From a virus, in IMG/VR virus record IMGVR_UViG_3300042691_013285, positions 1 to 30,983 of that record: 30,983 nt of DNA; one strand, 5' to 3'. The notes below the pieces were generated by a model, which was not told the DNA's origin, made no database searches, and saw nothing but the letters and a program-made list of their open reading frames with translations. A program made the translations under genes and the position numbers. This document shows, piece by piece, positions 2,248 to 30,983 of this stretch. The first letter of the stretch is position 1. Every line of letters begins with the position of its first letter.

Positions 2248-3531
2248 ATGAGTGATGTTATCGCACCCACTAAGAAAAAGAAAAAACGCAGCAAAGATTT
2301 TGAAAATCTTGTAGGACCTACTGACCCAAAAATTGACGCACAGGCACGTGAGCGATTGGTTACTGCACGTGTTGGTCTACTATTACGTCACAGTTTTTTT
2401 GGTAATCTTGCAACCAGATTACAATTAGTTAATGCTGATGAGTGGTGCAGTACTGCTGCTACTGATGGCAAACGTTTCTATTACAATTCACGTTTTATTA
2501 TGATGCTAAAGACCAAAGAGGTAGAGTTCCTAGTTGGTCATGAAGTGTTGCATGTAGTGTACGATCATATGAATCGTCGAGGTACACGTGATCCGCAGAT
2601 TTGGAATATTGCTGATGACTATGCTGTAAACGCAGACCTAAAACGTCACAAGGTTGGTGACTTTATTACTACTGTGCCTTGTTTGTATGAAAACAAATAT
2701 GATGGCATGGCTGCTGAAGCTATCTATGATGATCTGATGAAAAATGTTCAAAAGATTAACATCGATGACCTGTTGGACAAACTCATTGACGACCACATGG
2801 ATGGTGACGGAGAAGGCAACGGCGAGGATGAAGGTGATACTGATGGCAAAAGTAAACGTCCAAAATTAAGTGACGAAGAAAAAGAAGAAATCCGTCAGGA
2901 AATGAAACAAGCAATTCTTCAGGCTGCACAAAGTGCTGAAGCAGGTTCATTGCCTAAAGGTGTTGAACGTCTTATCAAAGATGTTACTAACCCTGTCATG
3001 CCCTGGCGTGAATTGATTCAAACAAACTTGACTAGTGCTATTCGTACTGACTATAGTTGGATGCGACCTAGTCGCCGTGGTTGGCATATGGATGCAGTAA
3101 TGCCTGGCATGACTCCAGGTGAAGAAATTGATGTTGTTGTTGCACTTGATATGAGCGGCTCAATTGGTGATAGACAAGCAAAGGCATTCTTAAGTGAGAT
3201 TGCAGGTATGATGGATGCATTTGATGGTTATAAAGTTCATGTATTCTGCTTTGATACAGACATTTATAATCCAAAAGATTTCACTAGCGAGAATCTTGAT
3301 ACAATTGATGAATACGATCCACAAGGTGGTGGAGGCACTGACTTTACTGCAATATTTGATTACCTCAAAGAAATTGGTAATGTGCCAAAACGTTTGATTG
3401 TTTTCACAGATGGTTATCCTTGTGGTAGTTGGGGTGATGCAGAATACTGTGACACTACATGGATCATTCATGGTGACAAAGATCCTAATCCCCCATTTGG
3501 TACGTATGCAATTTATGATGAACATAACTAG
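2248..3531 (+). CDS. VWA-domain protein with metallopeptidase-like N-terminal domain
   Basis: A 427-residue two-domain protein. Residues ~30-170 form a metallopeptidase-like domain with a zincin-type motif HEVLH (His98, Glu99, His102) and a downstream NIADDYAVN segment. Residues ~183-225 are a very acidic, charged linker. Residues ~295-427 form a von Willebrand A-like domain with a MIDAS motif DMSGS (Asp301, Ser303, Ser305) and a later FTDG strand end. This is the arrangement of the DUF2201-type family (putative metallopeptidase plus VWA-like), usually encoded next to a MoxR ATPase, as here. It starts MSDVIAPTKKK after AGGAGC. The likely role is the substrate-binding partner of the ATPase at 1018. 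Whether the HExxH site is catalytic cannot be read from sequence. Confidence 0.87.
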   Translation: MSDVIAPTKKKKKRSKDFENLVGPTDPKIDAQARERLVTARVGLLLRHSFFGNLATRLQLVNADEWCSTAATDGKRFYYNSRFIMMLKTKEVEFLVGHEVLHVVYDHMNRRGTRDPQIWNIADDYAVNADLKRHKVGDFITTVPCLYENKYDGMAAEAIYDDLMKNVQKINIDDLLDKLIDDHMDGDGEGNGEDEGDTDGKSKRPKLSDEEKEEIRQEMKQAILQAAQSAEAGSLPKGVERLIKDVTNPVMPWRELIQTNLTSAIRTDYSWMRPSRRGWHMDAVMPGMTPGEEIDVVVALDMSGSIGDRQAKAFLSEIAGMMDAFDGYKVHVFCFDTDIYNPKDFTSENLDTIDEYDPQGGGGTDFTAIFDYLKEIGNVPKRLIVFTDGYPCGSWGDAEYCDTTWIIHGDKDPNPPFGTYAIYDEHN

Positions 3532-3973: not shown

Positions 3974-4218
3974 TTATAAATCCAATAATTTGGTTTGCTG
4001 AACGAGAATTGGATTTCGTTCCGCGCCATTTCATCAAGTGTCCAACTCCACTAAATTTTCAGAGTAAACAATGGGTACAAAATAAAACAAACGGGCGATA
4101 TGCTTTTGTGCCCTTAGATCGATCGGGTATGCTTACAACTATCGAATTGTGTGTATGTTTTGAAGATCAAAAAGATGCAACAATGTACGAATTACTTTGG
4201 GCAGGCTCATCGACATAA
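3970..4218 (+). CDS. Hypothetical small protein ending in an aromatic-strand motif (82 aa)
   Basis: ATG 3970 overlaps the preceding stop (ATGA), which implies translational coupling. The C-terminus reads ELCVCFEDQKDATMYELLWAG. This resembles the F-x-F...(E/D)...F-x-L-x-W ending of the tandem small proteins at 25714-26413, so it may be a distant member of that fold. The N-terminal half contains an FVPRHFIKCP segment. No catalytic motif or membrane segment is visible. It is the last gene before the regulatory hairpin at 4222-4276. Confidence 0.7.
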   Translation: MIINPIIWFAERELDFVPRHFIKCPTPLNFQSKQWVQNKTNGRYAFVPLDRSGMLTTIELCVCFEDQKDATMYELLWAGSST

Positions 4219-4221
4219 AAA

Positions 4222-4276
4222 TTCTCCCAGTAGGCATTTACAATTAAATAATTGTGCTTATAAGCCTATAGGAGAA
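4222..4276 (+). promoter_or_regulatory. Nested hairpin that can sequester the ribosome binding site
   Basis: Three inverted-repeat pairs are nested. TTCTCC (4222-4227) faces GGAGAA (4271-4276), TAGGC (4231-4235) faces GCCTA (4264-4268), and ACAATTA (4240-4246) faces TAATTGT (4249-4255). The outermost right arm is the SD of the gene starting at 4281. In the folded RNA the SD would be paired, so this looks like a translational switch. There is no T-run, so it is not a standard terminator. Confidence 0.65.
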
Positions 4277-4280
4277 CAAT

Positions 4281-4934
4281 ATGAGTTTCATGAGACACGT
4301 CGGGAAAGTTGGCGATAGAAAAGTTGCTGTAATATTTAGAGAGGTTCCAGGTGAACCTCATATGTGTTTGTTAGTTTACACTGAAATACTAAATGCTCAT
4401 TTGCATGATTCGTTGATGCGTTGCGTTGAAAGCGATATTGGGCAAAATAGTGAAAACTTAGCAGATGCACTAAACAGAAGCTACACACAAGATGGTAAAA
4501 TAATTTTGCAAGTGTTACATAGTGAAGGACTCTTAAAAAAGATGCAAACTTCACAAGTTGTAATGACCCCTCAGCCTAACACAAAAATTAAATTAGAAGA
4601 ATTAAACAAGATTCTTGATGAAATGGCATTGGGAGAAGCTGCAGTAAAACGTTTAGCAGAAATTGATGCAAGCAGTGGGTTGCAAGATCCAGCTGATGTA
4701 GCACGTAGAATGCGTAATCAAGGACAATCTAATCCAAGTGCATCACCTGGTGCATTAGATGATTCAACACTAGCACAACAACGTTTAGAGCAGGCAGAAA
4801 AAATGGAACGTGAAGCTAATGGATTATTAGCCGAAGCAAAACGTTTAAAAGAAGAAGCTAAAGCATTAACACCATCAACTGTTAAGCCTACTACAAAACC
4901 AGTGAAAGCTAAAAAAGTAAAGAATGTCGCCTAA
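4281..4934 (+). CDS. Hypothetical protein with C-terminal coiled coil (217 aa)
   Basis: ATG 4281 follows GGAGAA at a good distance, but that SD lies in the hairpin 4222-4276. Residues 1-~110 form a compact alpha/beta domain (VAVIFREVPGEPHMCLLVY is strand-rich). Residues ~105-150 are helical. Residues ~165-200 are a heptad-like, Ala/Glu/Lys-rich coiled coil. The protein ends in a Lys/Pro-rich tail (KPVKAKKVKNVA) that could bind nucleic acid. I do not recognise a function. It heads the coupled operon 4281-7263 that includes thymidylate synthase and overlaps the next gene by 11 bases. Confidence 0.8.
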   Translation: MSFMRHVGKVGDRKVAVIFREVPGEPHMCLLVYTEILNAHLHDSLMRCVESDIGQNSENLADALNRSYTQDGKIILQVLHSEGLLKKMQTSQVVMTPQPNTKIKLEELNKILDEMALGEAAVKRLAEIDASSGLQDPADVARRMRNQGQSNPSASPGALDDSTLAQQRLEQAEKMEREANGLLAEAKRLKEEAKALTPSTVKPTTKPVKAKKVKNVA

Positions 4935-21454: not shown

Positions 21455-22489
21455 ATGAATAGACTGTTGAATGCGGAAGAAGTTTTGGATTTAATGCTTA
21501 ATCATGTAAGCTTGTCTAGGTACGACCAAAAATTTTTTTATAATTTACAGTTGAATAATGTACTGCCCAGAAAGGCTATAACAAGTAATCAAGCGGCATT
21601 GTTTACTAAAGTGGTGAAAAAATATAAAAAGCAATTATCTTCACACCAATATGACGCTGACCATTTATCTGAACTGCCTTGGACACTCAAAGTTGTACAA
21701 AGTAGTCCTGATTTTACTCATGCACAAATAAGCATAGAAGGCAATGAATTAATTTTACGGTGTCCATTCAAACAAGCCTTTGTTCAGGAGTTTAGAGACC
21801 AGTCAGTAATGATATGGAATAGAGAAAAAAGGTATTACAATACAGAGTTTGGTTTACATAAGTTAAAAGTAATACTTAACTGTGTAATGAAACATTATCA
21901 GGATATAAAGTTTTGTGAAAATGTACACCAAATAATAAACGAAATTTCTATACATGATGAATACAGTTGTTGGAACCCAACATTAACTAGATGTAATGGA
22001 AATCTATATATTTTTAATTTGAATGAATCATTAGATTCAGCTACAAATCATATTGTATTAGATACTGATTTAAGCACTTTGGCATTATTGTGTTCATATG
22101 GCATTACAATCAGCGATAGTTTAAAAAAAGAATTATTAACAATCTATTCAATAGATGATTTGATATTTGCAATTAATAGACAAAATATTCATGAGGTTTC
22201 AGACATAGCAGGGATAGCAGATAAACTTAAGAAAATAAATTGTGATTACGCATTACATGCCTCAATACATTCAACTTCCGAATCAGAGACTTATCACAAA
22301 ACACTTGCACAATATGTAGATTTTCCTGTACAATCTACTAATATGCGTAAAATTACTTTGTCCGTAAGATCATACAACATGCCTGTTATTTTAAAATCAA
22401 TGTCTGCATATAGTTTCTCAGGGGCAGGATGTTTCTATGCAGGCAAAATAATAAATTTAGTAAATTCTAACCCAATCGACATTAAATGA
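21455..22489 (+). CDS. UvsW-coupled protein, possible helicase partner (344 aa)
   Basis: A 344-residue protein with no SD before its ATG. Residues ~68-140 read like the accessory HARP-type module of SNF2-family helicases: a W-x-VV strand, then a CPFKQAFVQEFRDQ segment, WNREKRYYNTEF, and a helix LHKLKVILNCVMKHY. The later part is helix-rich with acidic stretches and Cys-containing strands. It overlaps uvsW by four bases (ATGA), so the products are made together. My reading is a DNA-binding or fork-recognition partner of UvsW, but the domain match is by eye and uncertain. No enzyme motif is visible. Confidence 0.65.
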   Translation: MNRLLNAEEVLDLMLNHVSLSRYDQKFFYNLQLNNVLPRKAITSNQAALFTKVVKKYKKQLSSHQYDADHLSELPWTLKVVQSSPDFTHAQISIEGNELILRCPFKQAFVQEFRDQSVMIWNREKRYYNTEFGLHKLKVILNCVMKHYQDIKFCENVHQIINEISIHDEYSCWNPTLTRCNGNLYIFNLNESLDSATNHIVLDTDLSTLALLCSYGITISDSLKKELLTIYSIDDLIFAINRQNIHEVSDIAGIADKLKKINCDYALHASIHSTSESETYHKTLAQYVDFPVQSTNMRKITLSVRSYNMPVILKSMSAYSFSGAGCFYAGKIINLVNSNPIDIK

Positions 22490-23943
22490 AACCATGTAAA
22501 ATAATAATTAAAGATGAAGTAAATTGCAAGATAGAGGGGCTTGAGTTAACTGAACGAAAGTCACTTATGAAAATGTTTGAGTATGAGGTACCTGGAGCTA
22601 GGTACCTTCCTGCTGTAAAACTTGGACGATGGAACGGCAAAGTAAGTTACTTTAGTTTGGGTGGAAGTACGTTTATAAATTTACTTGATAAAATTATCCC
22701 ATACTTAGACAGTGCAGGGTATGATATAGAATTAAATGATTTACGTGAGGTTAGCCATTCATTTAATTTTGCTCAAGTGTCCGAGGATACATTTGCACAT
22801 AAGGCATGGCCAAAAGGTCATACTATAGAAGGTCAACCAATACTGTTACGTGACTATCAAATTGAAATTATAAATAATTTTTTAGCTAATCCGCAGTGTA
22901 TGCAAGAAGTAGCTACTGGTGCAGGCAAAACAATTATGACGGCTGCACTAAGTCACAGCGTAGAACAATATGGTAGAAGTATTGTAATTGTTCCTAATAA
23001 AAGTTTAGTAGTTCAAACTGAAGCAGATTATATAAATTTAGGTTTAGATGTAGGAGTTTACTTTGGTGATAGAAAAGAACTAGGACACACTCATACGATT
23101 TGTACTTGGCAAAGTTTAAATTATCTCATTAAAAATAAAGATGATACAGATAATGCAGAAAAACTTCAAACCTTTATGGAAGATTTAATATGCATTATTA
23201 TTGATGAGGTACATCAAGCGAAAGCAGATGTACTTAAAACTATGTTGACAGGCTTGTTTGCTAACGTTCCAATTCGTTGGGGACTTACAGGAACTATACC
23301 CAAAGAATTGTTTAGTAGTCAATCGTTATTTGTTAGTATTGGTCCTGTTATAAACAAACTTGCAGCAAGCGAATTACAAGATCGAGGTGTGCTTGCGAAC
23401 TGCCATGTCAATGTTATTCAATTACAAGATCACGTAGAGTTCAGTAATTATCAAAGTGAATTAAAACATTTACTTGAGGATCAAAAAAGGCTTGATACAA
23501 TTGCACAATTAGTATTAAACATTAAAGAAACGGGAAATACTTTAGTACTTGTAGATAGAGTTAACGCAGGGAAAGAACTCATTGACAGAATACCCAATGC
23601 AGTATTTGTAAGTGGTGAAACAAAACTAACAGAACGGAAAGAAGAATATGATGATTTTGCGACGAGTGATGACAAAGTTGCTGTTGCGACTTACGGTGTG
23701 GCTGCTGTGGGTATTAATATACCCCGTATCTTTAATCTTGTTCTTGTTGAACCTGGAAAAAGCTTCGTTCGGGTTATACAATCGATTGGTAGAGGTATCC
23801 GAAAAGCTGAAGATAAAGATTTCGTCCAAATTTGGGACATAACTAGTTCATGTAAATTTAGTAAACGACACTTAACTAAGCGAAAAGAATTTTATCGGGA
23901 AGCTAACTATCCGTTTAGTATAGAAAAGTTAGACTATAAGTGA
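22486..23943 (+). CDS. uvsW: UvsW, superfamily 2 DNA helicase
   Basis: A 485-residue SF2 helicase. Signatures in order are RDYQ (residues 122-125), Walker A ATGAGKT (143-149), VPNKSLVVQ (motif Ia), DEVH (240-243, motif II), LTGT (267-270, motif III), and motifs V/VI in VAVATYGVAAVGINIPR and VIQSIGRGIRK. The N-terminal ~110 residues are a T4 UvsW-like DNA-binding domain (GRWNGKVSYFS). UvsW unwinds R-loops and branched recombination intermediates and regulates the switch from origin- to recombination-dependent replication. It is coupled to the upstream gene (ATGA). Confidence 0.95.
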   Translation: MKPCKIIIKDEVNCKIEGLELTERKSLMKMFEYEVPGARYLPAVKLGRWNGKVSYFSLGGSTFINLLDKIIPYLDSAGYDIELNDLREVSHSFNFAQVSEDTFAHKAWPKGHTIEGQPILLRDYQIEIINNFLANPQCMQEVATGAGKTIMTAALSHSVEQYGRSIVIVPNKSLVVQTEADYINLGLDVGVYFGDRKELGHTHTICTWQSLNYLIKNKDDTDNAEKLQTFMEDLICIIIDEVHQAKADVLKTMLTGLFANVPIRWGLTGTIPKELFSSQSLFVSIGPVINKLAASELQDRGVLANCHVNVIQLQDHVEFSNYQSELKHLLEDQKRLDTIAQLVLNIKETGNTLVLVDRVNAGKELIDRIPNAVFVSGETKLTERKEEYDDFATSDDKVAVATYGVAAVGINIPRIFNLVLVEPGKSFVRVIQSIGRGIRKAEDKDFVQIWDITSSCKFSKRHLTKRKEFYREANYPFSIEKLDYK

Positions 23944-23955: not shown

Positions 23956-24456
23956 ATGAAAATATTAACCTTAGACAATTCAGTGTACAATTTAGAAACG
24001 TTACCTGAAGAAATTGACGATTTAAGATTCGCAATCTTAGATAATAGTAATCCAGCAAACGTTGATTATCATTATATACCTTTGATTTTTTTAGAAAGCT
24101 TTAACAGCCCTGCACTTGTATTACGTATTGATAATAAAATTATCAAAATGCCAGTTGAATGGCAAATACTTATTGGTGAACCTGAATTGGGAGATTTAGA
24201 AACACTACCATTAACAAGCATTAATGATAGAGGCTTTAAAGCATTTGAATTTAATCCATTAAGTAGTTTTAAACCCACATTTTGTGACATAGAAGTTATG
24301 GACATTTATCATGATGTAGTTTGGTATGCGCCGAGATTAAAGAACGGGCAATTTCTTTGTGTACCAATTGAAGATACCGAAAAGCCCAGATGTGTTTACT
24401 TTGTCAAAGAGGTTAGTAGAAACTGTGAAATTGTTGATTATAAACAGGCATTCTAG
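23956..24456 (+). CDS. Conserved hypothetical protein downstream of uvsW (166 aa)
   Basis: A 166-residue acidic, beta-rich protein (MKILTLDNSVYNLETLPEE, then LVLRIDNKIIKMPVEW and FCDIEVMDIYHDVVWYAPRL). No catalytic cluster is visible. It resembles a conserved uncharacterised family near uvsW and gene 55 in T4-like cyanophages. I considered the late sigma factor gp55 and rejected it because the helical, DNA-binding organisation is absent. No SD is present; a TATAAT box lies six bases before ATG. It is coupled to the following gene by a one-base overlap of the stop (TAGTG). Confidence 0.75.
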   Translation: MKILTLDNSVYNLETLPEEIDDLRFAILDNSNPANVDYHYIPLIFLESFNSPALVLRIDNKIIKMPVEWQILIGEPELGDLETLPLTSINDRGFKAFEFNPLSSFKPTFCDIEVMDIYHDVVWYAPRLKNGQFLCVPIEDTEKPRCVYFVKEVSRNCEIVDYKQAF

Positions 24457-25043
24457 TGAATAAGCAAAAGACAAGTACGGACGAGAAGTTTACTGATATC
24501 GACTTTCCATTGTTTGATGCACTAGCTGCATTAGACAAAAAAGATTATGAGTTTTTTGATCGATTGACCTTGGAGCAACAGAAAGGATTTAGTCCATTCA
24601 TGTTGCTACATTGGCTTAGTGCAGTGTCGGGGATACCTGATTTACAACGTTATTACTTGCTAAACACAGATTACGCTGCAAACCAACATATATTTCATGA
24701 AAACGTTATCAAGCATAACAAGTTACAATGGTTAATATTATGTGCGGTTAGTCCAAATATGGGAAAGCAATTTCACAAATGGATACCGCACATTAAACGT
24801 AATTATACATTACTGACTGAAGAAGCAAAGACAAAAGATATTCAAGATTATTTTTCTAAAGTATATCCAAAGACTGACAAAGAAATATTAAGTGAGTTAA
24901 GTAAAGAATATACAAGAATACAAAAAAGAAAATTTAAATTAGCACAACTTTTTCCTAACTTAAAAGTTTCAGATATAGATGCACTAAATGAAGTTGTTAC
25001 AGATGAACAGATAATTGAATATGAAAAAGATTGTGGAAACTAA
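24456..25043 (+). CDS. Possible clamp-loader small subunit (gp62-like)
   Basis: A 195-residue helical protein starting at GTG 24456, which overlaps the preceding TAG. Its central region, FSPFMLLHWLSAVSGIPDLQ, then NKLQWLILCAVSP and GKQFHKWIPHIK, has the aromatic-rich pattern I associate with gp62-type clamp-loader subunits of aquatic T4-like phages (an F-x-P-x-M-x-x-x-W-x-S core). T4 gp62 (187 residues) is very divergent, so this is tentative. No partner gp44 or sliding clamp gp45 gene lies in the window, which weakens the call. It overlaps the next gene by 23 bases. Confidence 0.5.
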   Translation: MNKQKTSTDEKFTDIDFPLFDALAALDKKDYEFFDRLTLEQQKGFSPFMLLHWLSAVSGIPDLQRYYLLNTDYAANQHIFHENVIKHNKLQWLILCAVSPNMGKQFHKWIPHIKRNYTLLTEEAKTKDIQDYFSKVYPKTDKEILSELSKEYTRIQKRKFKLAQLFPNLKVSDIDALNEVVTDEQIIEYEKDCGN

Positions 25044-25713
25044 TTTTGGCTGCGAATTTTGCAAACGTAGTTTTGCAAGAGAAAGTACCATGCTAAAACA
25101 TATATGTGAATATAAGCATCGTTGGTTAGAGCGTGATCGCCGCGGCAATCAAATAGGATATCAAAGTTTTGTGCAATTTTATAAAAAACATAGTGCTGCT
25201 AAAAAAGAAAAGACATATGAAGAATTCATTAAATCAGCGTACTATACAGCATTTGTAAAATTTGGTAACTACTGTGTTGATATTAACGCAGTTAATGTTA
25301 CACGATTAGTAGACTACTATGTAAAAAACAATGTGAAGTTAGATAATTGGATCAGTGACAAAAGTTATACTGAGTATCTAATAGATTACTTGAAAACAGA
25401 AAACCCAATTGATGCAGTTCAACGTAGTATTGAAATGTGTTTAGAACTTGCACAGACAGAAAATTTACAACCAAACGATTTATTAAGATATGGAAGCAAG
25501 AGCAAGATATGTCAAGTTATAACAAATGGTAAAATAAGTCCATGGGTATTATATCAAAGCGACGGTGGTAAAAAGTTTTTAGATGAGCTACCAGAAGATT
25601 TAATTAAAATGATTTACGATTATATAAATCCTATTCAATGGGCAGTAAAGTTTTCCAAACAAGAAAGTGACGTAAAAGAAGTAAAAGACCTGCTACAAGA
25701 ATTGAAATGGTAA
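25021..25713 (+). CDS. C2H2 zinc-finger protein (231 aa)
   Basis: ATG 25021, inside the end of the previous gene, is preferred over TTG 25015. Residues ~11-33 contain a classical C2H2 spacing, C-x2-C-x12-H-x5-H (CEFC...KHICEYKH), a zinc finger that usually binds DNA, RNA or protein. The remainder (~200 residues) is helical and basic/acidic with FIKSAYYTAFVKFGNYC, a segment VDYYVKNNVKLDNW and a C-terminal LPEDLIKMIYDYINPIQW. Classical fingers are uncommon in T4-like phages, so a regulatory or recombination role is plausible but unproven. It lies directly upstream of the tandem small-protein genes. Confidence 0.75.
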   Translation: MKKIVETNFGCEFCKRSFARESTMLKHICEYKHRWLERDRRGNQIGYQSFVQFYKKHSAAKKEKTYEEFIKSAYYTAFVKFGNYCVDINAVNVTRLVDYYVKNNVKLDNWISDKSYTEYLIDYLKTENPIDAVQRSIEMCLELAQTENLQPNDLLRYGSKSKICQVITNGKISPWVLYQSDGGKKFLDELPEDLIKMIYDYINPIQWAVKFSKQESDVKEVKDLLQELKW

Positions 25714-26758: not shown

Positions 26759-27036
26759 ATCGTTTGTCTGAAATACCGCCTTTGAAGGATCATCACAATC
26801 AAGAATTTTCTTGGGATACGCATCCAACTGATCCTATGTTAATGGTAGTTTATCATTGGGGTAAACCAGTCATGAGTTTATTTTTAGGTGAAGCAATTGA
26901 ATCAGCAGGATATAAAGCAGTAATGGAACATGTAGAAGAATGTAATCGTACACCTTGGTTGCATCGTTGGCATAAAGAAAGAAAAGATTTTGAATACAAA
27001 GATGTTGTTGATATACTTACGAAAGATTATGAGTAA
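26755..27036 (+). CDS. Hypothetical protein (93 aa)
   Basis: ATG 26755 overlaps the upstream stop (ATGA), and the TAA overlaps the ATG of the exonuclease gene by one base (TAATG). It is His/Trp-rich: DHHNQEFSWDTHPTDPMLMVV, then YHWGKPVMSLFLG, and HVEECNRTPWLHRWHKER near the end. The many His and Cys residues could bind metal, but there is no recognised motif. It is co-expressed with the exonuclease and the mini-DnaE, so a link to DNA metabolism is possible. Confidence 0.7.
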   Translation: MNRLSEIPPLKDHHNQEFSWDTHPTDPMLMVVYHWGKPVMSLFLGEAIESAGYKAVMEHVEECNRTPWLHRWHKERKDFEYKDVVDILTKDYE

Positions 27037-27602
27037 TGGCTAATCATATTATGATTGACATTGAAAGCCTTGACACAAGTCCGTATTGTGTTATACTTAC
27101 TATTGGTGCAGTAAGATTTGATCCTCGCGGTGATGGTATTGTAGAAAAACTAGAACTAAGGCCAACACTGGAAGATCAAACTGAAATATACAATCGCATT
27201 ATAAATGATGATACTATTCGTTGGTGGAGTACACAAAATTCTGCAGCACTAGAAGAAGCAATGGGCGATAATGATAGAGAACCATTAAAAGATTGTATGG
27301 AAAAACTTTACAAGTTTTGTTGGAATCGTCAGGCAGTATGGAGTCATGGTGCACCATTTGACGTTGTTGTGATGGAAACTGCAATGCGACAAACACTTAC
27401 AGATAGACCTAACCCTATTCCATGGCCTTTTTATACAGTACGTGATACTAGAACATTGTTTGAGATTGCCGGTGTAAGTTTGAAAGATAAAAAGTATAGC
27501 ACAAAGACAACACACAAAGCAGTTGAAGATGCTGCTCACCAAGCAATAGTAGTACAAGATGCATATAAGAAATTAATGGATAAAGGATTCGCTTTAAAAT
27601 GA
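27036..27602 (+). CDS. DEDDh-type 3'-5' exonuclease
   Basis: A 188-residue DnaQ-like exonuclease. Asp8 and Glu10 (MIDIESLD) form the first motif, Asp109 (SHGAPFD) the second, and His160 with Asp165 (HKAVEDAAHQA) the third, completing the DEDDh set. Aromatic segments (TIRWWSTQN, WPFYTVRDTRTLF) lie between the motifs, as in phage DexA and Rv2179c-like 3'-5' exonucleases. It removes nucleotides from 3' ends of DNA or RNA. Its TGA overlaps the ATG of the miniature DnaE gene (ATGA), so the two are made together. This is suggestive because the proofreading exonuclease of bacterial DNA polymerase III is of the same fold. T4 DexA itself is longer. Confidence 0.93.
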   Translation: MANHIMIDIESLDTSPYCVILTIGAVRFDPRGDGIVEKLELRPTLEDQTEIYNRIINDDTIRWWSTQNSAALEEAMGDNDREPLKDCMEKLYKFCWNRQAVWSHGAPFDVVVMETAMRQTLTDRPNPIPWPFYTVRDTRTLFEIAGVSLKDKKYSTKTTHKAVEDAAHQAIVVQDAYKKLMDKGFALK

Positions 27603-28183
27603 CATTTAAAAGTGACATTGACATAGACTTTGGTAATCGTGATTTGATATTGGAACATATTAAACACATTTCTGCTGCTATGCGCAATGTAAATCCTATG
27701 AGAAAACATAATACTGGTGTATATGTTACAGAAATACCATATGATGCACTTAATGATATGGCAAACATAGATTATACAGAAGCAGAAGACCGCGGTTATG
27801 TAAAATTAGATTTCTTAAATGTGCATGTATATCAAGATATACAATCAGAACAAGAATTAATTAAATTGATGAAAGAACCTAATTGGAGTTTGTTAAACAA
27901 AAAAGAGTTTGTAGAGCAATTAGTACATTTGGGCAACCACTATAATAACTTACAAAAAATGCCTGAACCAGTTGATAGTATACCTAGACTTGCTATGTTC
28001 CTAGCTTGTATAAGACCAGCAAAAAAACACCTATTAGGTAAGCAGTGGGCTGAAGTTGCTAAAACAGTTTGGGACAAATCTGATGACGGGTATAGCTTTA
28101 AGAAAAGTCACAGTGTTGCATATGCTCATTTAGTAGTAGTACACATGAACTATCTTGAAAAATTAGGGCATACGCTGGACTAA
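27599..28183 (+). CDS. Miniature DNA polymerase III alpha (DnaE)-like protein
   Basis: A 194-residue protein in which the motifs of the bacterial C-family polymerase appear in the right order but with very short spacing. They are SDIDIDF (residues 5-11, the metal-binding PDIDxDF motif), HNTGV (37-41, from HxxGV), GYVKLDFLN (66-74, from GxxKFDFLGL, with Asp71), IRP (138-140) and GYSFKKSHSVAYA (164-176, from GYGFxKSHAxAYA). Full DnaE has about 1,100 residues; PHP, thumb, beta-binding and most finger parts are absent. The catalytic-type Asp residues are kept, yet polymerase activity is unlikely at this size. The frame is intact and coupled to the DEDDh exonuclease (ATGA), so it is not obviously a decaying fragment. 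Its last 21 bases overlap the convergent minus-strand gene. Role unknown. Confidence 0.82.
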   Translation: MTFKSDIDIDFGNRDLILEHIKHISAAMRNVNPMRKHNTGVYVTEIPYDALNDMANIDYTEAEDRGYVKLDFLNVHVYQDIQSEQELIKLMKEPNWSLLNKKEFVEQLVHLGNHYNNLQKMPEPVDSIPRLAMFLACIRPAKKHLLGKQWAEVAKTVWDKSDDGYSFKKSHSVAYAHLVVVHMNYLEKLGHTLD

Positions 28184-28540
28184 TGTAATACTCCTACGTT
28201 TAGTTTTTTTCTTATGTAAGTCGCTCATGCTGCATATAGGTCCATGTATAATCTCTAAACTTTTATTATTAAAAGTCCTTAAATAAATTTTAAATGGAGC
28301 CCATTCTTCTCTTAGGAACATATTGATAGGGATGAGTCTATTACTTTCCCACCACCATATTTCCCCTAGTTCAAGAAATCGTTCTCTCAGTTCATTTTGT
28401 ACAATGGACCCATAGTCATATATTGTTGTTACAATATCGTCTCGGTTTTGTATGATTCCTACATAGTCTTGACCTGAATAGGAACAGACAGTGATGAATG
28501 GATGATTTTCGGATAATTTTTTAAAAAATTCGTTGTGCAT
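28163..28540 (-). CDS. Conserved minus-strand protein of T4-like phages (125 aa)
   Basis: One of only two minus-strand genes seen. The protein starts MHNEFFKKLSENHPFITVC, then SYSGQDYVGIIQNRDDIVT, LGEIWWWESNRLIPINMF, EWAPFKIYLRTFNNKSLE and a basic end KKKTKRRSITLVQRM. This sequence resembles conserved hypothetical proteins of aquatic T4-like phages, which as I recall also lie on the opposite strand. No enzyme motif is evident; the strong basic C-terminus suggests nucleic-acid binding. A minus-strand late octamer at 28560-28567 and AGAAG just before ATG support late expression. It overlaps the end of the mini-DnaE gene by 21 bases, tail to tail. Confidence 0.85.
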   Translation of the reverse strand: MHNEFFKKLSENHPFITVCSYSGQDYVGIIQNRDDIVTTIYDYGSIVQNELRERFLELGEIWWWESNRLIPINMFLREEWAPFKIYLRTFNNKSLEIIHGPICSMSDLHKKKTKRRSITLVQRMP

Positions 28541-29399: not shown

Positions 29400-29429
29400 T
29401 TGTATTTTTACAAATTAATGTACTATAAT
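29400..29429 (+). promoter_or_regulatory. Sigma70-type promoter for the primase gene
   Basis: TTGTAT (29400-29405), an 18-base spacer, TATAAT (29424-29429). ATG 29436 begins six bases after the -10 box, so the mRNA should start at or next to the codon. The bases TACTATAATAATA also occur at the promoter of the VWA gene (2211-2223). Confidence 0.55.
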
Positions 29430-29435
29430 AATAGT

Positions 29436-30401
29436 ATGTTTGATATCCTCACAGTAATTCCAAATAAGAAAAAGCTAACCCATAGTGGCTGGTATAGTTT
29501 TAACGCGGTATGTTGCGATAAACGTGGACATAAACCTGATAAAAGACATAGGGGTGGTATAAAATTTGACGGAAGTAATTGGACATACAACTGCTTTAAT
29601 TGTTCGTTTAGCTGTCATTATGAACTAGGACGCAGTATAAGTAAGCGCACCCGTGATCTACTTAAATGGTGCGGTATCGACGAAACACAAATTCAACGAT
29701 GGAATATAGAAAGTTTACAAAACAAAGATTTACTAGATTTTACAAAAAAATTTAAAAAAGAAAAAGACCTTGTTTTTAAGCCTAAGAAATTACCAGAATC
29801 AGAAGCGTTGGATGAGGTAAACCCACTACATAAACAATACATTGATTATTTGACTACTAGAAAAATAAATTATTTTGAACACCAGTTTTTTGTAGCTCCC
29901 AATGATGAGGGAAGAAACGCAAACAGAATAATTATACCTTATTATTACAATGGTGAAATTGTAGGACACACAAGCCGCTTTTTAGACGATAGAATACCTA
30001 AATACATAAATGATCAACAACCAGGCTATGTATTTGGTTATGATAATCAAAAGAAAGATTGGCAAATTGCATTACTGATGGAAGGTATTTTCGATGCATT
30101 ATGTATTGATGGATTGGCTTTGACACATAATACAATTAATGATGATCAGGTAAGATTGATAAAACAACTTAACAAAGAAGTTATTTTTGTGCCTGACAGA
30201 GATAAAACAGGATTAGATACATGTGAAAGAGCGTTAGAAGTGGGATTCAAAGTTAGTCTACCAAATTGGGATACAGACGTAAAAGATGTAAATGATGCTG
30301 TAATAAAATATGGAAAGCTACCTACGTTATTAAGTATTATACAGAGTGCAACGACAAGTAAAATAAAAATAGAAATGATGAGGAAACGAATTGGTAACTG
30401 A
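29436..30401 (+). CDS. 61: DNA primase (gp61-like)
   Basis: A 321-residue primase from ATG 29436; the longer frame from TTG 29400 would begin inside the promoter. The N-terminal zinc-binding part has Cys26-Cys27 and His32, then Cys53-x2-Cys56-x3-Cys60 (NCFNCSFSC). A central linker and a TOPRIM domain follow, with the Glu-containing LLMEGIFDAL and the DxD-type motif PDRDKTG. It makes RNA primers for lagging-strand synthesis and works with the helicase gp41, encoded immediately after. Its stop overlaps the helicase reading frame by 11 bases. T4 gp61 is a similar size (342). Confidence 0.9.
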   Translation: MFDILTVIPNKKKLTHSGWYSFNAVCCDKRGHKPDKRHRGGIKFDGSNWTYNCFNCSFSCHYELGRSISKRTRDLLKWCGIDETQIQRWNIESLQNKDLLDFTKKFKKEKDLVFKPKKLPESEALDEVNPLHKQYIDYLTTRKINYFEHQFFVAPNDEGRNANRIIIPYYYNGEIVGHTSRFLDDRIPKYINDQQPGYVFGYDNQKKDWQIALLMEGIFDALCIDGLALTHNTINDDQVRLIKQLNKEVIFVPDRDKTGLDTCERALEVGFKVSLPNWDTDVKDVNDAVIKYGKLPTLLSIIQSATTSKIKIEMMRKRIGN

Positions 30402-30983
30402 TTATAACATAGATGTACAGAAACTTTTCTTGCGTATGATGATTACGAATGGAGAATTATACACTAGAGTTTCAAACATAATGAATGCTGAGAATTTCGA
30501 TAAATCATTGAGACCAGTTGCAAAATTTTTTCAATCGCATTCAGAAAAATATAATGTACTTCCAGAAGCGGAACAGGTATTAGCCACATGTGGGATAGAA
30601 ATTGAACCTATACCAGAATTATCACAAGGTCATTTTGAATGGTTTTTAGATGAATTTGAAAAATTTACACGTAGACAAGAATTAGAAAGAGCTATTTTAA
30701 AAGCAGCAGATTTATTAGAAAAAGGTAATTACGATCCTGTTGAAAAACTAGTCAAAGATGCAGTTCAAATCAGTATAACAAAGGATATGGGTACTGATTA
30801 CTTTGCTGATCCACGTGCTAGATTGATGGCACTAAAAAGTAATAATGGACAAATCAGCACAGGTTGGCCTACGGTTGACAGTAAACTATATGGTGGTTTT
30901 AACAGAGGTGAATTACAAATTTTTGCAGGTGGCTCAGGATCAGGTAAGAGTTTGTTTATGCAGAATCTTGCAGTCAACTGGAG
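30391..30983 (+). CDS. 41: Replicative DNA helicase gp41 (DnaB-like), 5' part
   Basis: The frame opens at TTG 30391 with AGGA (30381-30384) six bases before it, overlaps the end of gene 61, and runs off the right edge. The visible ~197 residues hold the helical N-terminal domain (DVQKLFLRMMITNGELYTR, an acidic helical middle) and the start of the RecA-like motor: TGWPTVDSKLYGGFNRGEL and Walker A GGSGSGKS (residues ~180-187), as in the T4 gp41 helicase. It unwinds the fork as a hexamer and forms the primosome with gp61. ATG codons at 30436/30439 exist but would cut into the N-terminal domain. Confidence 0.92.
   Translation, partial: MVTDYNIDVQKLFLRMMITNGELYTRVSNIMNAENFDKSLRPVAKFFQSHSEKYNVLPEAEQVLATCGIEIEPIPELSQGHFEWFLDEFEKFTRRQELERAILKAADLLEKGNYDPVEKLVKDAVQISITKDMGTDYFADPRARLMALKSNNGQISTGWPTVDSKLYGGFNRGELQIFAGGSGSGKSLFMQNLAVNW

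Follow-up and report, generated by a model that had tools for sequence, protein, structure and literature searches.

The locus and its conserved neighbours

The window analysed here is the whole 30,983-nucleotide stretch of the virus record IMGVR_UViG_3300042691_013285. Near its right end lies an intact open reading frame of 194 codons with an ATG start, which encodes the C-terminal portion (hereafter the C-half) of a minimal DNA polymerase III alpha that is split in two. The gene, the residues that it shares with Escherichia coli DnaE, and its neighbours are the following:

22486-23943, plus strand: UvsW-like recombination helicase, conserved upstream neighbour (66/90 loci)
27036-27602, plus strand: DnaQ-like 3'-5' exonuclease (Rv2179c-like, phrog_255), overlapping the start of the C-half by 4 bases
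27599-28183, plus strand: C-terminal half of a split minimal DNA polymerase III alpha (phrog_11778), 194 aa
27614-27628, plus strand: DIDID; D6 and D8 correspond to the catalytic D401 and D403 of E. coli DnaE and D10 to D405 (invariant in 22/22 diverse and 79/79 closer homologues)
27707-27718, plus strand: HxxG; H37 and G40 correspond to DnaE H511 and G514 (invariant)
27803-27811, plus strand: KxD; K69 and D71 correspond to DnaE K553 and the catalytic D555 (invariant)
28013-28018, plus strand: RP; R139 and P140 correspond to DnaE R639 and P640, fingers (invariant)
28100-28111, plus strand: KKSH, with H171 in the active-site fingers helix of DnaE K758/S759/H760 (H171 invariant; the strongest profile-profile segment)
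28163-28540, minus strand: convergent gene (phrog_11637) overlapping the 3' end of the C-half; a conserved neighbour, not a known part of the enzyme
29400-30401, plus strand: DNA primase (phrog_47), conserved neighbour (119/127 loci)
30391-30983, plus strand: DnaB-like helicase, cut by the end of the window, last full codon at 30981

The C-half is situated in a conserved block that comprises UvsW, three genes without known function, the C-half itself, the convergent gene, a 248-aa protein, the primase, and the DnaB helicase. Three genes assigned to phrog_11279, phrog_11758, and phrog_11058 are consecutive between UvsW and the C-half (23956-25713) and are conserved in most relatives; a C2H2-like motif can be read by eye in the phrog_11058 gene. 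The phrog_11637 gene follows the C-half in 137 of the 138 loci whose downstream sequence is long enough, and the two genes overlap at the 3' end of the C-half in 119/148. An antisense overlap conserved to this degree is unusual, and it is kept where the C-halves are only ~30-48% identical.

At the upstream side, the stop codon of the exonuclease gene overlaps the ATG of the C-half as ATGA, a -4 overlap by which the translational coupling of the two genes is real. The same overlap is present in 57 of the 132 homologous loci with enough upstream sequence. The exonuclease directly adjoins the C-half in only 61 of these 132 and stands beside it in none of the named phage loci, and it was therefore rejected as an obligatory proofreading partner; possibly it is a clade-specific one.

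Relationship of the C-half to C-family polymerases

A preliminary description of this DNA had proposed that five DnaE landmarks occur in the right order within 194 residues, that the frame is intact and coupled to its neighbour, and that the protein is homologous to the palm and fingers of DnaE with the metal site kept. All of these proposals are borne out. The landmarks (D6-I-D8-I-D10, H37-N-T-G40-V, G66-Y-V-K69-L-D71-F-L, I-R139-P140, and G-Y165-S-F167-K-K-S-H171) follow the DnaE order; none of 200,000 shuffled versions of the protein contains the ordered pattern, and among the 126 open reading frames of the window it occurs in the C-half alone. The protein starts exactly at the PDxDxDF motif, and the catalytic aspartates D6, D8, and D71 are invariant in all homologues. 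Across the 22 diverse and 79 closer C-half homologues, the equivalents of D401, D403, D405, H511, G514, K553, D555, L557, R639, P640, and H760 are all invariant, and the C-half of the window phage shares 29-48% identity with those of the named phages sampled.

The HMM searches suggested in the preliminary description recover the polymerase family. The C-half matches the profile of phrog_11778 ("DNA polymerase") with an E-value of 3.6e-56 over residues 4-187 of 194; its last 36 residues match the full-length phage Pol III family phrog_405 (E 1.1e-7), and TIGR00594 is matched at E 1e-3. Sequence similarity to DnaE is weak except in the last 35 residues. A Pfam scan of the C-half of the window gave no match above the cut-off, and a profile of 22 C-half homologues found none of the PDB chains at E 0.1; DNA_pol3_finger of Pfam is above the cut-off at the C-halves of phages XacN1 and RAS14. 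Because these Pfam and PDB sequence searches alone are inconclusive, the homology is settled by profile-profile comparison and by structure. Alignment with six DnaE proteins by hhalign yields three colinear segments (C-half 5-21 with E. coli DnaE 400-418, 33-141 with 507-641, and 151-183 with 738-772). The AlphaFold model, built with 79 homologues (pLDDT 92.1), superposes on PolC 968-1296 with Z 9.6 and 3.2 A over 187 of the 194 residues, and on E. coli DnaE 397-781 with Z 8.5. Among solved structures, residues 1-192 of the model align full-length with C-family polymerases only, and chains outside this family reach Z values of at most 3.5. As to which fold is nearer, PolC and DnaE tie within about 1 Z unit for the models of both halves. 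The C-half is thus a genuine fragment of a C-family (DnaE/PolC) polymerase with a palm/fingers fold. It comprises the second part of the palm and much reduced fingers; within a minimal catalytic core that is split in two, it forms the C-terminal half. It has neither a PHP domain nor a thumb, nor the GS-bearing first half of the palm; most of the fingers is missing, and nothing after DnaE position ~781 is represented. The clamp-binding, OB, and CTD domains of full-length Pol III alpha are absent as well.

Purifying selection acts on the intact gene. Compared with relatives of 69-85% nucleotide identity, it contains no stops and shows a dN/dS of 0.03-0.07 (about 0.05), the exact value being rough because dS is near saturation in most pairs compared. 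The proposal that a compressed DnaE has been selected rather than left to decay therefore holds as far as selection is concerned; compression does not describe the protein, since only the region of DnaE ~397-781 is present and the rest is absent.

The N-terminal partner and the distribution of the two halves

The missing GS motif (R362, G363, and S364 in DnaE) is found, invariant, in a separate protein, the N-half (phrog_11127), which is ~170 aa long and bears the triphosphate-binding motif GRGS. A "truncated" Pol III alpha of 172 aa has been reported in phage CBB (PMC5259590), and this protein belongs to phrog_11127. The N-half matches Pfam DNA_pol3_alpha (E 2.1e-8) and, by hhalign, DnaE (1.9e-10), with the match ending at residue 393. 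A model of the N-half of a relative (L265, gene 4001-4504; pLDDT 86.8) matches C-family polymerases only, corresponding to E. coli DnaE 279-393. The equivalents of R362, G363, S364, and S368 are invariant in 59/59 N-half homologues.

The end of the N-half falls exactly before the PDxDxDF motif. Since the N-half ends at the position of DnaE 393 and the C-half begins at that of 397, the chain is cut within the palm, with the triphosphate-binding motif on one protein and the metal-binding aspartates on the other. Two positions without variation among the DnaE proteins sampled are consistently switched: the DnaE-invariant R390 is replaced by E/D in the N-half and P642 by K in the C-half, so that the split active site is not identical to that of DnaE. 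One possible reason for these switches is a new contact between the halves. The replacements carry opposite charges and might pair across the split.

The sample for co-occurrence comprised 28 genomes or long contigs, each selected because it encodes at least one of the halves. Both are present in 26 of them, the C-half in 27/28 and the N-half in 27/28, once each; the two without both halves are partial 191-kb contigs. Among those chosen for the N-half only, 7/8 contain the C-half, and 18/19 of those chosen for the C-half only contain the N-half; phage XaC1 was found with both. A family B polymerase accompanies the two halves in 11/11 isolate phages and is present in 11/17 contigs of the sample; none is found in the 31-kb window, which is a fragment. 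Neither is an N-half found inside the window. In 9/10 long contigs with C-halves close to that of the window, the N-half lies on the same strand 35-53 kb downstream of the C-half, a distance that reaches beyond the right end of the window, and its presence in the window phage is inferred from these relatives. In annotated phages, the N-half adjoins a GroES-like gene and a clamp loader.

Neither an N/C fusion nor adjacent N and C genes occur in 264 loci, and searches of 16 genomes with TIGR00594 and a finger model detected no other Pol III alpha fragment (thumb, fingers, PHP) above threshold. A scan of genome contigs for a cellular version of the mini-protein returned 12 matches, all in metagenome-assembled or uncultured genomes of unrelated phyla; these are best read as phage contigs in bins, and a cellular version was rejected. 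Both halves are also present in Alishewanella phage Slicko01, whose genome of 141 kb is well below the usual 200-kb jumbo size; their occurrence in a sub-jumbo phage is a new observation here. The family B polymerase of Slicko01 also reads as two frames.

A probable two-piece polymerase and its relation to known systems

The analysis establishes the homology and the fold, the invariant catalytic residues of both halves, the exact split point, the co-occurrence, and the purifying selection. Very probably, the protein is one subunit, the C-terminal one, of a minimal C-family DNA polymerase made of two pieces that together rebuild one site. The C-half would supply the metal-binding half of the palm with its three aspartates, the adjacent lysine, and the reduced fingers with the Lys/His helix, and the separate ~170-aa protein would supply the other half of the palm, where GRGS would cradle the triphosphate of the dNTP. 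The halves would join non-covalently, forming one nucleotidyltransferase site at the cut (DnaE 393/397). We infer that they most likely assemble into a second, accessory polymerase beside the family B replicase of the phage, with gap filling and recombination-primed or lagging-strand patches as its conceivable tasks. As the enzyme is devoid of PHP, thumb, clamp-binding, OB, and CTD regions, its synthesis is probably short and distributive. Taken in its most specific form, a thumbless, clamp-motif-free C-family polymerase of ~360 residues, with two subunits sharing the active site and a task of its own beside the family B replicase, the proposal has about an even chance of being right.

The absence of the thumb, PHP, and clamp-binding parts, the switches of two DnaE-invariant positions (R390 to E/D and P642 to K), and the location of both genes among replication genes would also suit a non-catalytic replisome component, formed by the C-half alone or with the N-half and acting as a decoy for the partners of host Pol III or as a structural adaptor for the PolB/clamp machinery of the phage. 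This is unlikely, however: every metal-binding aspartate and the GRGS motif stay unchanged even between deeply diverged homologues, a constraint for which a decoy has no need, and the regions by which DnaE binds host partners are exactly those that are missing, namely PHP, which contacts epsilon, and the clamp motif and CTD, which contact beta and tau. The regulator of host Pol III that the preliminary description envisaged finds no support either, nor do its stand-alone mini-DnaE and its relic put to a new use. The C-half provides only one half of the catalytic site, and nearly every relative examined also encodes the partner phrog_11127. A decaying relic of full-length DnaE would account for the very small size and for the many missing domains, yet it is scarcely credible given the dN/dS of about 0.05, the lack of stops, the same boundaries across phages of very different hosts, and the retained partner.

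The two halves might alternatively carry out nucleotidyl transfer of a kind other than templated DNA synthesis, such as untemplated tailing, end modification, or the conjugation of nucleotides, on the same Pol-beta-like core, as the nucleotidyltransferase part is kept and the thumb and most of the fingers, which hold duplex and template, are gone. In DnaE, S759 and H760 serve nucleotide selection; for H760, the dnaE literature considers a role as steric gate. The conservation of this K/S/H helix of the fingers and of the RP element, together with neighbours that are replication genes, makes such an activity improbable. The two-piece polymerase remains the preferred reading.

If this reading is true, no natural C-family polymerase would be smaller, and the enzyme might serve as a model of a form that preceded fusion into DnaE/PolC. 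To our knowledge, C-family polymerases replicate all bacteria; a natural enzyme in two pieces, conserved among large phages with many hosts, would define the minimal working core of this family. Kept alongside a family B replicase, it would also reveal that unrelated polymerases divide the labour.

The preliminary description knew of no described function for such a phage protein, which is incorrect. In 2021, Iyer, Anantharaman, Krishnan, Burroughs, and Aravind predicted from genomes that jumbo phages of group 2.2 encode a minimal Pol III alpha in split form (PMC7824862), to which the C-half of the window adds a new member. Their split reading is reproduced independently here for the phage group of the window. 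In relatives of the window phage, the same two proteins (phrog_11778 for the C-half and phrog_11127 for the N-half) are encoded by distant genes, mostly with a family B polymerase alongside; nothing essential appears to differ, and the window phage is an uncultivated relative. In the literature searched, no paper with an experimental test of the split enzyme was found. In a survey of marine jumbo phages, PF07733, the Pfam family of the N-half, was found in 51.9% of the largest cluster (PMC9123017), a figure that may include proteins other than the split halves. A MoxR-type AAA+ ATPase (1018-2115) followed by a metallopeptidase-vWA protein (DUF2201; 2248-3531) is encoded near the left end of the window, and this pair, typical of group 2.2 (PMC7824862), is shared by the window phage with the jumbo phages of that group.

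Like bacterial DnaE and PolC, the split enzyme has the core fold of palm and fingers, the aspartate triad, K553, H760, and GRGS, here distributed over two proteins. It differs from them in being cut in the palm, in its much shortened fingers, in the switched R390 and P642 positions, and in the absence of PHP, thumb, HhH/clamp-binding, OB, and CTD parts. With the full-length phage DnaE proteins (phrog_405; phage G, Streptomyces phages, and others) it has in common that a C-family polymerase is encoded by a phage. Unlike the split enzyme, these are single chains close to the host enzyme, and they are treated as separate host-derived acquisitions (Iyer et al., 2021; PMC7824862).
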